DNA of 36,079 nucleotides from contig LKND01000024.1 in the NCBI GenBank assembly GCA_001564275.1, positions 1 through 36,079 on the forward strand, in the 5' to 3' direction. The notes below the pieces were generated by a model. That model was not told the DNA's origin, made no database searches, and was given only the letters and a program-made list of their open reading frames with translations. The first letter of the stretch is position 1. The number at the start of each line of letters is the position of its first letter. Below are positions 4,432-8,489 of this stretch, piece by piece. Position numbers and translations under genes: made by a program. This DNA comes from Natrialbaceae archaeon Tc-Br11_E2g14. GTDB lineage: Archaea > Halobacteriota > Halobacteria > Halobacteriales > Natrialbaceae.

Positions 4432-5074
4432 CGTCTGCTGGAACGGTGTTTCGAGCGGGTTGGTCGGCAGGCTGTGCGTCTGCGGTGGCGGTGTCGTCGG
4501 TGCCCCTCGCGAGGGCCGTGGTGCCGGTTCGGGAGATTTCGCGGATCCCGAACTGGCTGAAGGCCTCGATGGCCGCGTCGATCTTCTGGCGCGCACCGGT
4601 GATCTCGACGGTCGCCGTCTCGGGACTTGCGTCGACCGTCTTCCCGCCGTACATGTCTGCCACGGCAGCGACCTGATCGGGCCGAGTCGAGTTGACTTTC
4701 ACCAGCGCCAGTTCCCGCCGCATGGCGTTTGGTTCGAGTTCTCGAACGGCGATCACTGGAATCAGCTTCCGGAGTTGCTTTTTGATCTGCTCGATCCCCG
4801 GGTCTGGCTCCTCGACCACGAGGGTGATCCGCGCTCGGTCGTCGCTCTCCGTGGGCCCGACGGTCAGGCTCTCGATATTGAACTGCCGCCTCGAGAACAG
4901 CCCCGAAACGTCCGAGAGGACGCCAGGCTCGTGTTCGACCAGCGCGGAAATCACGGTCCGTCGGGGGGTCTGTGCGGCCTCAACGGCCGGATCGACACGG
5001 ATGCCCAGTTCGTTGCGTCGCCCCTCGGGCGTCGGACGCTCCGACGGCGGTGGGCCTTCGAGTCCGCCGGTCAT
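4424..5074 (-). CDS. ilvN: acetolactate synthase small (regulatory) subunit
   Basis: Regulatory subunit of acetohydroxyacid synthase, binding valine through an ACT domain. The protein is 216 residues. The ACT domain lies at about 38-115 ([20 protein letters not shown] then [12 protein letters not shown]). A C-terminal ALS_ss_C domain follows (about 120-195), then a low-complexity acidic tail. The start at 5074 gives an ATGA overlap with the ilvB stop; the longer open frame upstream is Arg-rich antisense of ilvB. It works as a complex with IlvB in the cytoplasm. Confidence 0.95.
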
Positions 5075-6885
5075 AGCTGGTCCTCCGTCAGGGCGAACTG
5101 GCCGTTGTCGCCGCCACTTGGCACCATCGGATAGACGTTCGCCTGGGGATCGATGTGGGCGTCGATCACCGAGGGACCGTCGTAGTCGAGTGCCGCCTCG
5201 ACGGTGTCGGCAACCTCGTCGTAGTCGTCGATGCGGAATCCCTTCGCCCCGAAGGCTTCCGCCAGGGTATCGAACTCGGGACACCAGTTGTACTCCGAGG
5301 CGGAGTGACGCCCGTCGAAGAAGGCGTCTTGCCACTGACGAACCATCCCGATGTACTCGTTGTTCAGAACGACGACCGTGATGTCGAGGTTCTCCCGAAC
5401 GGCCACGGCCAGCTCCTGGATCGTCATCAGGAACGAGCCGTCACCCTCGAAGGCCACGATCTCCTGGTCACCGTCGGCCGCCAAGCGGGCACCGATGGCC
5501 GCCGGCAGGCCATAACCCATCGTCCCCAGGCCATGACTCGAGATCCACGTGCGTGGTTCGGTGTAGGTCCAGTACTGGCAGGCCCACATCTGATGTTGGC
5601 CGACGCCGGTGGTCACGATGGCCCGGTCGCTCGTGGCTTCGTCGAGCGCCTCGACAACGAACTCCGGTTTCAAGGGCTCGTCGTCGGGCGTCTTGTACGC
5701 CATCGAGTACGCCGACTTCCACTGCTGGCACTGGGCCCGCCACTTGGTCGCCTTCGGCGAGGTGTGAACGGCATCCGTCAACTGCTCGAGCACCGTTGCC
5801 GCGTCACCGACGAGCGGATACTCGGCGTGGACGTTCTTGCTGATCTCGGCTGGATCAATATCCACGTGAATAACCTCGGCGTCGGGCGCGAAGGTCTCGA
5901 CGCCACCAGTCAGGCGATCGTCGAATCGGGTGCCAACGGCGATCAGCGTGTCACAGTGGGTGATCGCCATGTTGGCGTAACCGGTACCGTGCATGCCAGC
6001 CATCTCCATCGCGAGTTCGTGATCCTCAGGGAACGCGCCGAGACCGGGCATCGTCGTCACGACCGGAATCTCGTGTTCGATGGCGAAGGCTCGAGCCTCC
6101 GCGGTGGCATCACCCTTGATCACGCCGCCGCCGAGCAACATCGTTGGGCGACTCGAGGTCTCGATTCGACGGGCGGCCTGCTGGACGATTTCGTCGTCCG
6201 CGTACTCCTGGATGTCGTACGTATCGGGTGTGGTTGGTTCCGCGGGTTCGCGCGCACTCGAGGTGTTACCCAGCGTCACGTCTTTGGGCAGATCGACGAG
6301 CGTCGGACCGGGTCGCCCGGTGTTCGCGAGAGCAAACGCCTCACTGACGTCGTCGCCAACCGTATTCGGATCGCTGGCAAACGTATTGGCCTTCGTGATC
6401 GGTTTCGTGACGCCCGTCGTATCGGTCTCCTGAAAGGCGTCGTTGCCGACCATTTCCGTCGGCACCTGGCCGGTCAGCGCGATCATCGGATCGGAGTCCA
6501 TATCGGCGTCGGCGATGCCGGTCACGAGGTTGGTCGCGCCTGGGCCGGACGTGGCTAGACAGACACCGGGTTCGCCCGCGACGATGCCGTAGGCGTCGGC
6601 AGCGTGGGAGGCCCCCTGCTCGTGGGCCATCGTCACGTGCTGGATGTCGGCGTCGTAGAGGGCGTCGTAGACGGGCATGATCGCCCCACCTTGCACCCCG
6701 AAGGCGTACTCGGCGCCCGCGTTCTCGAGGGCGCGGACCACGCCCTGGGCCCCCGTGGTAATCGGTTTGTGCTCCGGGGTCTCGCGAATCTCGTGGCTCT
6801 CGTCCTCCTCGAGCGTGGTGTCGGCGGACTGTTCTGTGGTCGATTCGGTCTTCGTCGGTGGAACGGGTGATGCGCGTTCGCTCAT
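5071..6885 (-). CDS. ilvB: acetolactate synthase large (catalytic) subunit
   Basis: ThDP-dependent catalytic subunit of acetohydroxyacid synthase (604 residues), the first common step of valine, leucine and isoleucine synthesis. Visible features are the N-terminal ThDP pyrimidine domain (GVQGGAIMPVYDAL, HEQGASHAADAYG), the central FAD-fold domain, and the C-terminal ThDP/Mg motif GDGSFLMTIQELAVAV ending near NNEYIGM. About 30 acidic residues precede the conserved part, as is common in haloarchaea. A run of six G plus A (6891-6897) lies five bases before the ATG and can serve as ribosome-binding site. The gene has its own promoter and a 5' leader of about 250 bases holding a candidate leader peptide (7058-7135). 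Confidence 0.96.
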   Translation of the reverse strand: MSERASPVPPTKTESTTEQSADTTLEEDESHEIRETPEHKPITTGAQGVVRALENAGAEYAFGVQGGAIMPVYDALYDADIQHVTMAHEQGASHAADAYGIVAGEPGVCLATSGPGATNLVTGIADADMDSDPMIALTGQVPTEMVGNDAFQETDTTGVTKPITKANTFASDPNTVGDDVSEAFALANTGRPGPTLVDLPKDVTLGNTSSAREPAEPTTPDTYDIQEYADDEIVQQAARRIETSSRPTMLLGGGVIKGDATAEARAFAIEHEIPVVTTMPGLGAFPEDHELAMEMAGMHGTGYANMAITHCDTLIAVGTRFDDRLTGGVETFAPDAEVIHVDIDPAEISKNVHAEYPLVGDAATVLEQLTDAVHTSPKATKWRAQCQQWKSAYSMAYKTPDDEPLKPEFVVEALDEATSDRAIVTTGVGQHQMWACQYWTYTEPRTWISSHGLGTMGYGLPAAIGARLAADGDQEIVAFEGDGSFLMTIQELAVAVRENLDITVVVLNNEYIGMVRQWQDAFFDGRHSASEYNWCPEFDTLAEAFGAKGFRIDDYDEVADTVEAALDYDGPSVIDAHIDPQANVYPMVPSGGDNGQFALTEDQL

Positions 6886-6983
6886 CGTCGTCCCCCCGCA
6901 CGCCCCCGACTCGCGGGTCGCGTGCAGTGTCGTAACCGATTGGCGTTCGTGTTCCTGGCTGTCATTGGTGTGGGTCGTGGAGC

Positions 6984-7003
6984 TGACGCCACCGGTGGCG
7001 TCA
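6984..7003. promoter_or_regulatory. 20-bp perfect palindrome in the ilvB leader
   Basis: The word TGACGCCACCGGTGGCGTCA is a perfect 20-bp palindrome. In RNA it would form an 8-bp stem with a CCGG loop, about 55 bases after the leader-ORF stop and about 100 bases before the ilvB ATG. It may be part of a leader RNA structure or a DNA operator. No U-run follows, so it is not a standard terminator. Confidence 0.5.
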
Positions 7004-7052
7004 TCTGTCGGTCGAAGATCGGTGCAAACTCGGGACGAGGGGTGGAGTAATG

Positions 7053-7070
7053 AGGGGCTAGGCGGCCCCT
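7053..7070 (-). promoter_or_regulatory. hairpin overlapping the stop codon of the ilvB leader ORF
   Basis: Arms AGGGGC (7070-7065) and GCCCCT (7058-7053) pair around a six-base loop that contains most of the leader-ORF stop codon. The left arm starts in the final base of the Val codon and directly follows the Leu-Ile-Ile codons. A ribosome paused there or at the stop would block it. The right arm GCCCC could instead pair with GGGGGC at 6902-6907 next to the ilvB ribosome-binding site. This alternative pairing is inference. Confidence 0.45.
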
Positions 7071-7135
7071 ACAATAATGAGCGAAACGGACACACCGCTG
7101 TCGACGGAGCGCGTCGAACTGGCGCTGGTCCTCAT
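7058..7135 (-). CDS. candidate ilvB leader peptide (25 codons, ends in Leu-Ile-Ile-Val)
   Basis: A 25-codon ORF running ATG to TAG. It begins MRTSAS and ends SVSLIIVGAA. Its ATG lies 30 bases downstream of the centre of a good TATA box (7161-7170), exactly the spacing of haloarchaeal leaderless genes, so it should be the first codon of the transcript and be translated. The last residues are all three branched-chain amino acids in a row (Leu CTC, Ile ATT, Ile ATT, Val GTA). ATT and GTA are uncommon in this GC-rich genome, where ATC and GTC/GTG dominate. A GC-rich hairpin covers the stop codon. ilvB starts 172 bases further on. The arrangement is that of bacterial ilv leader-peptide attenuators; its function here is inferred. 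Confidence 0.55.
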   Translation of the reverse strand: MRTSASSTRSVDSGVSVSLIIVGAA

Positions 7136-7160
7136 TACCTATCTCGTAGTGGCCTCGGGG

Positions 7161-7170
7161 GATATAACCC
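7161..7170 (-). promoter_or_regulatory. TATA box of the ilvB-leuD operon
   Basis: On the minus strand the word GGTTATATCC, preceded by purine-rich CGAAG (BRE-like), lies about 30 bases before the leader ORF ATG and about 90 bases after the leuA stop codon. It implies a start of transcription near 7139 and a separate promoter for ilvB onward. Confidence 0.6.
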
Positions 7171-7255
7171 TTCGGCGAGGGGCAAGGCTTGCGCGAACCC
7201 ACTCGCGAGTGAGCCAGCAGGTGCTGGCGGCCGGTCGCGAACACCGCCTCCATGC

Positions 7256-8489
7256 CTACGCTCGCACCTCCTCTCGCTCCGGCAGGCGGGCAACGCCCTC
7301 GTCCTCGGCGAAACGCTCGAGGTCGGTGACGGTGACGCGTCGCTTTTCCGCCCCGTAGTCTTTGACGCGCCTCGTGATCGCGCGTACTTCGCTCTCGGTC
7401 GGATCGTAGCCGGTGTCGACCAGGCGCTCCCGTACCGAGTGGGTGCCGGTGTGTTTCCCCAGAACCAGTCGGCGTCGCGCGCCGACCATCTCGGGCGTCA
7501 TCACGCCGGGCTCGAACGTGTCGGCGTTCTCGATGACGCCGGCGGCGTGGATCCCGCTCTCGTGGGAGAAGGCGTTCGCCCCGACGACGGGTTTGTTCGG
7601 CGGCGTGGTGACACCGCTTCGGTCCGCAACCGCTTGCGAGAGTTCGGTGATCCTCGTGGTGTCGATGTCCGTATCGGCCTGGTAGACCGACTCGACGGCC
7701 ATCACATACTCCTCGTAGGCGGCGTTGCCGGCCCGCTCACCGATGGAGTTGACCGAAACCTGTGCCTGCTCGGCACCGGCCTCGATACCCGCGAGTGCGT
7801 TCGCCGTCGCCAGCCCGAAGTCGTCGTGCGTGTGGACGTCGATCCGTGCGTCGGTGTGGTCCACGACGGTTTCGATCAGGTCGTAGAACCGGCGTGGCGT
7901 GGCCACCCCACACGTGTCGGGGATGTTGATCCAGTCAGTACCAGCCTCGGTGACCGCCTCGATGACCTCGAGCAGGTAGCCCTCGTCGGTCCGCGTAGCG
8001 TCCATCGGGGAGTACATGCAGGTCGCTCCCGCCTCCTTGACGCGTTCGACGGCCTCGATCGACCGTTCCACGACGGCCTCACGACTCGAGTGCATCGAAT
8101 CCTCGATCTGGACGTCACTCGTCGAGACGAAGACGTGGACCATCTCGACGCCGGAGTCGAGCGCAGACTCGATGTCACCGTCGACGACGCGGGCCAACCC
8201 ACACGTCGTCGTGGCCGTATTCGATGCGATCTGGGAGACTGCCTCGAACTCCGCCTCGGAGTTGACGGGAAACCCGGCCTCGATGACGTGAGTACCCATC
8301 TCGTCCAGAATCCGCGCGATGTCACGCTTGTCCTCGGTGGAAAACGAAGTGCCTGGGGACTGTTCACCATCGCGCAGGGTCGTGTCGAAAACGCGTGCTG
8401 TTGCGATTTCGTCAGTAGAGTCTAACGTTCCCTGGAAGAACTCGACCGCCCTGAGGGGTCTCAGAGCCGGTGTCGGTTGGAGTCGACAT
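7256..8489 (-). CDS. leuA: 2-isopropylmalate/citramalate synthase (LeuA family), apparent frameshift near codon 11
   Basis: Condenses acetyl-CoA with a 2-oxoacid, the entry step of leucine (or citramalate-route isoleucine) synthesis. The conserved body is open from about 8491 to 7256 and includes VEFFQGTLDSTDEI, the catalytic motif FDTTLRDGEQSPG and the metal site HTHDDFG. In that frame there is no ATG, GTG or TTG before the catalytic motif; the first ATG (8299) would delete it. The only well-placed start is the ATG at 8489, 31 bases after a TATA box, but it is out of frame by one base. Dropping one C from the CCCC run at 8455-8458 joins SETLRAVEFFQG and gives about 410 residues. That is the short form, lacking the C-terminal LeuA regulatory domain. 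Mutation, sequencing error or programmed +1 shift cannot be told apart here. Confidence 0.85.

Follow-up and report, generated by a model that had tools for sequence, protein, structure and literature searches.

Whether a haloarchaeon can read its supply of branched-chain amino acids through a translating ribosome is the question raised by a short open reading frame (ORF) upstream of the acetolactate synthase gene ilvB in the Natrialbaceae archaeon Tc-Br11_E2g14. In bacteria, amino-acid genes that are controlled through a ribosome on a leader peptide are a textbook case. The locus lies in a stretch of 36,079 nucleotides (nt) of contig LKND01000024.1, hereafter the window, in which an earlier, sequence-only reading had described a TATA box, a 25-codon ORF ending in Leu-Ile-Ile-Val-Gly-Ala-Ala, a hairpin over the stop codon of this ORF and ilvB 172 nt further on. 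All of these parts were confirmed: the short ORF, here called upstream ORF 1 (uORF1), ends in the stated seven residues followed by the stop, and the ilvB ATG (6885) lies 172 nt downstream of that stop. The hairpin begins with the final base of the Val codon, and the TAG stop (7060-7058) lies in its loop and 3' arm. Our analysis suggests that this element is probably a leader peptide that acts as a valine(-isoleucine) sensor, in which the ribosome would read charged tRNA-Val and tRNA-Ile and thereby control ilvB.

The codons at the end of uORF1 are unusual ones, as had been claimed for ATT and GTA. In the window genes leuA (counted from 8299), ilvB and ilvC, GTA accounts for only 2 of the 117 Val codons and 6 of the 59 Ile codons are ATT, and across the ilvB genes of the collected loci the shares are 0.6% and 5.5%, respectively. 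The ilvB-type pattern has a single match in the window's own genome.

Using the window IlvB as the query, we took 80 haloarchaeal loci from 103 relatives. Leader counts refer to 79 leaders (the window plus 78 of the 80 loci, with L062 and L078 excluded because their upstream DNA was too short), and these counts run across related genomes that are not independent of each other. The pattern AT[TCA]GTAGGG[GC][CT] was found 5' of ilvB in 79/79 leaders, with GTA (79/79) and GGG (79/79) as the sole invariant parts. The core Ile codon was ATT in 69, ATC in 9 and ATA in 1 of the leaders, and the base directly 5' of it was T in 73. The branched-chain codons had been read as the signal as a group; this holds for Val (GTA), which is invariant, and for Ile, which is nearly so, but not for the Leu before the core, which is optional. 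A hairpin of 5-10 base pairs with perfectly complementary 4-nt arms was likewise present in 79/79 leaders, and its arms are separated by 5 nt in 7, 6 nt in 5 and 8 nt in 67 loci. The uORF1 stop codon (TAG in 65, TAA in 10 and TGA in 4 leaders) falls within the hairpin in 70 of the 79, and in the other nine it stands in the same frame four codons further on. Compensatory changes of the arms were identified, namely GGGCC/GGCCC in L064 and L070 and GGGGT/ACCCC in L058. In addition, an alignment (A2) built from 37 of the 67 leaders with the 8-nt gap showed two-sided changes at two hairpin pairs, a level matched by 1 of 500 shuffles.

The promoter and the reading frame of uORF1 are also maintained. 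The tetramers TTAT or TTTA occur at -29 to -36 from the uORF1 ATG in 74/79 loci, precisely at -32 in 61, and such a tetramer lies wholly inside -34 to -26 in 70/79 leaders versus 41 of 1580 control ATGs. Because this TATA-to-ATG spacing is fixed, the transcript is predicted to be leaderless, starting at the uORF1 ATG itself; 72% of the protein-coding transcripts of Haloferax are reported as leaderless (PMC4983044). When the first ATG after the TATA-like box was picked blind to frame, 72 of the 74 loci with such a candidate had it in the frame of the Ile-Val-Gly core (five of the 79 loci had no promoter-anchored ATG), which speaks indirectly for translation of uORF1. The two exceptions (L020 and L074) carry an in-frame ATG a few bases further on. 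The distance from the in-frame ATG to the motif takes 13 different values, from 36 to 111 nt, and at least 24 changes of uORF1 length or spacing were counted on the IlvB tree (73 loci), a count that takes in-frame ATGs only. The residues of uORF1 other than its end drift freely.

The uORF end and the hairpin were turned into a covariance model (R1, built from the same 37 leaders as A2 and applied with a threshold of E up to 0.01), which matched 335 of 391 Halobacteria genomes, and all 49 best-match loci examined for position lie at ilvB. This conservation, together with that in 79/79 leaders, rules out a chance ORF. When homologous loci were checked for a missing ORF or missing branched-chain codons, both were found to be kept in 79/79 close loci and, as a motif variant with the hairpin, in 19 of the 21 near-full ilvB copies from 20 of the 56 genomes in which R1 had no match. 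The variant ends include VVVGAV, GIVGG and VFVGAA (the last read by eye), the core Ile being replaced by Val in L147 and L148 and by Phe in L161. Among 246 genomes drawn from the whole phylum, 33 matched, every one of them from the class Halobacteria, and none of 30 ilvB upstream regions (35 genomes) from Halobacteriota outside the class had an Ile-Val-Gly end with a hairpin.

Some further observations were made at these ilvB genes. The genome of L161 has a second ilvB copy (L167); one of the two carries an in-frame TGA and the other a valS-like FVGAA end. Outside the class, one unrelated GGGG/CCCC stretch was seen 5' of ilvB (L189), and 9 of the 30 upstream regions contain some short ORF with at least four Ile/Leu/Val in six residues. 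Two of these ORFs, which lie within about 40 nt 5' of the ilvB match and end in NLPVVVVC (L200) and ANPIVVGLVE (L203), are possible branched-chain leaders of another lineage, or chance.

A related leader precedes the gene for valyl-tRNA synthetase, valS. R1 gave a second, weaker match in 20 genomes, and the idea that these were chance matches was refuted, since 10 of the 10 inspected lie 5' of valS. The uORFs at these sites end in VFVGA, VVVGA, LVVVGA, LFVGA, VFVGP (with GGGCC/GGCCC arms) or RVGA. In an independent draw of 31 genomes of the class, which yielded 30 valS loci, the GTAGGG hairpin leader was found in eight (6 of 7 loci of family f1 and two of family f3). The window genome itself has the valS leader (L210). 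Seven divergent valS loci (L228 and L230-L235) instead have a Val-run uORF of 9-10 codons and no GGGG/CCCC hairpin; the script found MRVALSVVRG, MRLTASVVR, MRVGSTVVRV, MSVGTAVVRV and MSVGIAVVRV, and MRVVAVVRE in L232 and L233 was recognised by eye. The hairpin leader is present at 21 valS loci, and 14 of them also have a second uORF that runs into the start of valS through an ATGA or GTGA overlap; the end of this uORF is mostly RRPxRAVRA-like (L207-L212, L137, L139-L142, L145, L250 and L253).

Leaders matching the encoded enzyme were also found before the genes for phenylalanyl- and tryptophanyl-tRNA synthetases. A Phe-run uORF of the GFGFFF type lies 5' of pheS in 9 of 14 loci (L261-L264, L266, L268, L270, L272 and L273), for example MAAESQVRASDGTRPQRPRSGFGFFFAR, and the window genome has MAPESHPRAGTDSQPSPTVSGFGFFA at this place. 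Three of four small trpS paralogs are preceded by Trp-cluster uORFs, MNAAPWRWWSPASGADSPAVVVAAA, MTTALEWQWRWGWQPSSRADSIVAAADAA and MQSAPTRWRWRTSGADSLAFAA (L286, L294 and L298), in which a long hairpin is predicted around the Trp codons, with arms of a different sequence in L298. NCBIfam confirmed the gene identity of two pheS and three trpS. The first listing of these uORFs had used a filter for F or W; a later, unfiltered scan covered the short ORFs before 83 tRNA-synthetase loci. It found Phe-run ORFs in 9/14 pheS versus 0/69 other tRNA-synthetase loci, and Trp runs (three in seven residues) in 2/4 small trpS versus 0/79 others. A strict rule of four Val in seven residues held in only 2 of 30 valS, two Ile runs were non-cognate (before one long trpS and one valS), and no cognate run was seen before ileS (10 loci), leuS (5), tyrS (10) or long trpS (10). 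Before trpC (15 loci), five upstream ORFs with at least two Trp were found, none clustered by eye. Since cognate leaders thus stand before many valS, most of the pheS examined and a trpS paralog, amino-acid sensing at ilvB gains independent support.

Table 1. Features of the ilvB leader and its neighbourhood in the window
Feature	Position	Strand	Remarks
TATA box TTATAT	7162..7167	minus	internal promoter; first T 32 nt 5' of the A of the uORF1 ATG
uORF1, leader peptide MRTSASSTRSVDSGVSVSLIIVGAA*, 25 codons	7058..7135	minus	predicted leaderless; ATG at 7135
Core control codons ATT-GTA (Ile-Val)	7070..7075	minus	CTC-ATT (Leu-Ile) directly 5'
GC hairpin AGGGGC-CGCCTA-GCCCCT (arms A-GGGGC/GCCCC-U, loop CGCCTA)	7053..7070	minus	over the uORF1 stop
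C/U-rich, G-poor tract	7038..7053	minus	directly 3' of the hairpin
ilvB, acetolactate synthase large subunit	5071..6885	minus	TIGR00118, above cut-off
ORF X	6882..7253	minus	open frame that begins just past the leuA stop and reaches the ilvB start; contains uORF1 in another frame
uORF2 (3' part of ORF X)	6882..7004	minus	ATG at 7004; TGA overlaps the ilvB ATG as ATGA
leuA reading frame	7256..8443	minus	best NCBIfam match 2-isopropylmalate synthase, below cut-off
TATA-anchored ORF before leuA, MSTPTDTGSETPQGGRVLPGNVRLY*	8412..8489	minus	ATG at 8489, out of the LeuA frame, needs a +1 shift

From the position, frame, codons, hairpin and conservation of the ilvB leader and from its valS counterpart, all of them read in the sequence, we infer that uORF1 is translated, that ribosomes may stall on it and that a downstream step would follow. 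Transcription from the leader's own promoter would give a leaderless transcript starting at the uORF1 ATG. With ample charged tRNA-Val and tRNA-Ile, the ribosome would pass Ile-Val-Gly, stop within the hairpin and depart, after which the hairpin would form, the G-poor, C/U-rich tract would be exposed and ilvB expression would be kept low, most likely via a transcription stop or RNA cleavage in the untranslated leader. Under a shortage of valine or isoleucine, the ribosome would instead stall at ATT-GTA over the 5' arm, no hairpin would form and ilvB would be expressed. Candidates for the downstream step are FttA-type termination, which we prefer, RNA decay and reduced translation. FttA, an archaeal termination factor, favours U-rich RNA and, according to a hypothesis put forward by its authors, may police transcription-translation coupling (PMC11616081). 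The hairpin has a mean folding energy of -12.7 kcal/mol (67 loci), and G makes up 2-11% over the first 16 nt after it (79 loci).

Several results weigh against this proposal. A run of at least four T within 20 nt of the hairpin, as expected of a U-run terminator, was found in only 3/79 leaders. How accessible the uORF2 and ilvB starts are depends little on the 5' arm, whose masking causes a shift of only 0.01-0.03 (67 loci); the freed 3' arm is then paired at 0.24 on average, with a partner at p>0.5 in 28 of 66 loci. Of these 28 partners, 26 lie within the initial 40 nt of ilvB (+35 to +38 in 12, +2 to +8 in 10, the others single), and such pairing with the ilvB start region would if anything hinder ilvB. 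Substitutions in uORF1 are spread over the three codon positions as 72/79/73 (25 pairs), without bias; this would fit a freely varying leader peptide and equally an untranslated stretch. Cognate uORFs are missing from 5 of the 14 pheS loci and 1 of the 4 small trpS, neither type of leader precedes valS in L206, in L229 or in any of the 13 loci of family f4, and the element is absent from 2 of the 21 ilvB copies in genomes missed by R1 (L160 and L166). Finally, ilvB does not appear in the table of 16 uORFs of Haloferax volcanii (PMC4983044).

The masking test gave 3'-arm partners at scattered positions, and no single shared competing hairpin is predicted. A classical terminator/antiterminator switch is thus unsupported, because there is no U-run and the partners of the 3' arm are scattered. 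The sequence-only reading had named the element a leader-peptide attenuator; its sensing part is borne out by the conserved uORF and hairpin and by the cognate valS, pheS and trpS leaders, whereas premature termination finds no support in the 76/79 leaders without a U-run or in the lack of a shared competing hairpin. As judged from its sequence, the ilvB leader would work like bacterial leader-peptide attenuation but lacks the U-run terminator by which that family is recognised.

The leader is embedded in a second arrangement of open frames that had gone unnoticed, in which uORF1 is nested in ORF X and uORF2 overlaps the ilvB start as ATGA. An NCBIfam search with the ORF X of the window, at E up to 1e-5, found no family. 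In 63/70 loci no stop interrupts its frame between the leuA stop and ilvB, versus 1/70 and 0/70 for the other frames, and it opens with ATG or GTG at -1 to +4 nt from the leuA stop in 62/70. The uORF2 frame is stop-free by construction from 30 nt past the motif, and only the part from the leuA stop to the motif is a free test; over the 150 nt 5' of the motif (71 loci), 13 stops were counted in the ORF X frame versus 41 and 150 in the others. The distance from the motif to the ilvB start falls into one class modulo 3 in 66/71 loci. This had hinted at a frameshift from uORF1 into the uORF2 frame, an idea that was dropped, as valS leaders have no fixed motif-to-start frame (classes 0/1/2 in 10/4/7 of 21 loci, first start listed); such a frameshift is also unneeded, because ORF X, by reaching back to the leuA stop, accounts for the frame seen at ilvB. 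The overlap of the uORF2 stop with the ilvB start is ATGA in 68/79 and GTGA in 3/79 leaders. Over 68 loci, Ile, Leu and Val make up 2.6% of uORF2 in frame, whereas the other two frames hold 14.2% and 8.3%, and shuffled sequences 7.6% (6.0-9.7%). No amino-acid-level constraint by codon position was detected in uORF1, uORF2 or the spacer. A perfect 20-nt palindrome, TGACGCCACCGGTGGCGTCA, lies at window positions 7003-6984, where it overlaps the uORF2 start, and a near copy occurs in L001.

The leuA gene upstream has a start problem of its own. In the window (region 8526-7256, minus strand), no ATG, GTG or TTG stands in frame before the catalytic motif, and 67 of the 78 leuA loci lack an in-frame ATG before this motif. 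In 71/78 loci there is a TATA-anchored ATG from which LeuA can be reached only by a +1 shift; three of these have another in the third frame, and none has one in the LeuA frame. We therefore suspect, from these frame counts, a conserved programmed frameshift or a non-standard start. Pfeiffer and Dyall-Smith discussed the start-codon problem of leuA2 (HVO_1510) and considered an out-of-frame ATG with slippage, and they speculated about control by leucine (PMC8305020); the Haloferax case is alike in its leuA start problem and unlike in that it concerns leuA and not the ilvB leader. On a leuA transcript, ribosomes finishing leuA would run through ORF X across the ilvB hairpin and override it, so that ilvB would stay on. 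The combined logic would be an OR, in which ilvB is expressed when either valine/isoleucine or leucine is short.

On balance, we lean slightly towards the wider view that haloarchaea possess general, separately evolved amino-acid-specific leader peptides on leaderless transcripts, with Ile-Val read at ilvB, Val at valS, Phe at pheS and Trp at the trpS paralog, together with an obligatory +1 frameshift before leuA, perhaps sensing leucine, and the OR control of ilvB through leuA.

The main alternative to leader-peptide sensing, which we regard as possible though unlikely, is translational control via uORF2: ribosomes ending uORF1 would reinitiate at uORF2 and so set the ribosome supply to ilvB, with no transcription termination. 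The ATGA or GTGA overlap in 71/79 loci, the depletion of Ile, Leu and Val in uORF2 (2.6% in frame) and the equivalent overlapping uORF2 in 14 of 21 leader-bearing valS loci all speak for it, as does the strict coupling reported for 13 of 14 overlapping gene pairs in Haloferax and Escherichia coli (PMC6728339). Yet the uORF1 stop and the uORF2 ATG are about 50-90 nt apart in most loci, which is long for termination-reinitiation, and the relay predicts lower ilvB output under starvation. The frame of the ilvB uORF2 is, moreover, explained by ORF X, and the pheS starts show no ATGA-type uORF overlap in nine loci. Compared with the published coupling (PMC6728339), the ATGA overlap is alike, whereas the pairs described there are annotated genes and the partner here is ORF X, a bridging frame without a conserved protein.

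Arrest by the nascent peptide itself is improbable. In such a case, which we take to be akin to TnaC and SecM, the Ile-Val-Gly end would stall the ribosome with the help of a co-signal, be it an amino acid or some other ligand; the signal would then not be codon supply. Ile-Val-Gly before the stop is indeed the sole conserved part of the peptide; however, VVG, FVG and IVGPA variants occur, the stop lies 4, 5 or 9 codons from the start of the Ile codon, and it is the rare GTA codon, beyond Val alone, that is conserved. The pheS and trpS leaders, in turn, encode different, cognate peptides.

Even less credit can be given to a DNA operator, in which a transcription factor would bind the GTAGGGGC...GCCCCTAC dyad downstream of the promoter and the ORF would be incidental. 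The dyad is strongly conserved as DNA and extends to TGTAGGGGC/GCCCCTACA in several loci, but arm gaps of 5, 6 or 8 nt would rotate the half-sites, and the ATG-to-motif distances of 36 to 111 nt are multiples of three in 72/74 loci; on the variable arm gap and the in-frame spacing, the operator was rejected as the principal explanation. In addition, the uORF1 stop codon is kept in frame, GTA is retained where its pairing partner is lost, an equivalent leader precedes valS, and divergent valS without the dyad carry Val-run mini-ORFs. The most doubtful of the alternatives is a riboswitch-like element, either a structured RNA or an RNA-protein binding site, that can be read as an ORF only by coincidence. 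The covariation of the hairpin and the conservation of nucleotides such as the T before the Ile codon (73/79) speak for it; against it are a conserved frame and start codon, a lone hairpin of 5-10 base pairs that is small for a ligand domain, and the absence of any match at the gathering threshold when the Rfam 15 covariance models, including riboswitches, T-box and ilvB motifs, were run on the window.

Among known systems, leader-peptide sensing at ilvB most resembles the bacterial ilv, trp and phe ribosome-mediated attenuators and the actinobacterial ilvB and trpS/leuS leaders (PMC1262725), with which it shares a leader ORF of cognate codons and a hairpin at the control codons. Unlike these, the haloarchaeal uORF1 is predicted to be leaderless and has a TATA promoter, with one hairpin over the stop, no U-run terminator and no shared antiterminator found. 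The ilvB-II motif of Corynebacterium (PMC10272879) is similar in its conserved uORF 5' of ilvB and its enrichment in branched-chain residues; it is bacterial, with attenuation proposed and in vivo reporters described, whereas the haloarchaeal element is known from sequence alone. In Haloferax volcanii, Table 2 of Babski et al. lists 16 uORFs of 15-31 residues in long 5'-untranslated regions (PMC4983044), and short uORFs before pheS (HVO_2948) and trpS (HVO_A0127) are among them, as in our analysis; the uORF section of that paper proposes no amino-acid matching or mechanism, and valS is not in the table. In the literature searched, whose scope did not extend to two directly relevant Haloferax ribosome-profiling papers or to supplements, we found no case of archaeal leader-peptide attenuation.

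Taken together, the conserved haloarchaeal leaders suggest that archaea, too, may sense amino acids through the ribosome. If true, the coupling of transcription and translation would serve metabolic sensing in archaea, and the long-open question of whether archaea attenuate would become directly testable in Haloferax. Additionally, reading such ORFs as leader peptides would give a reason for some of the uORFs in haloarchaeal transcript maps.

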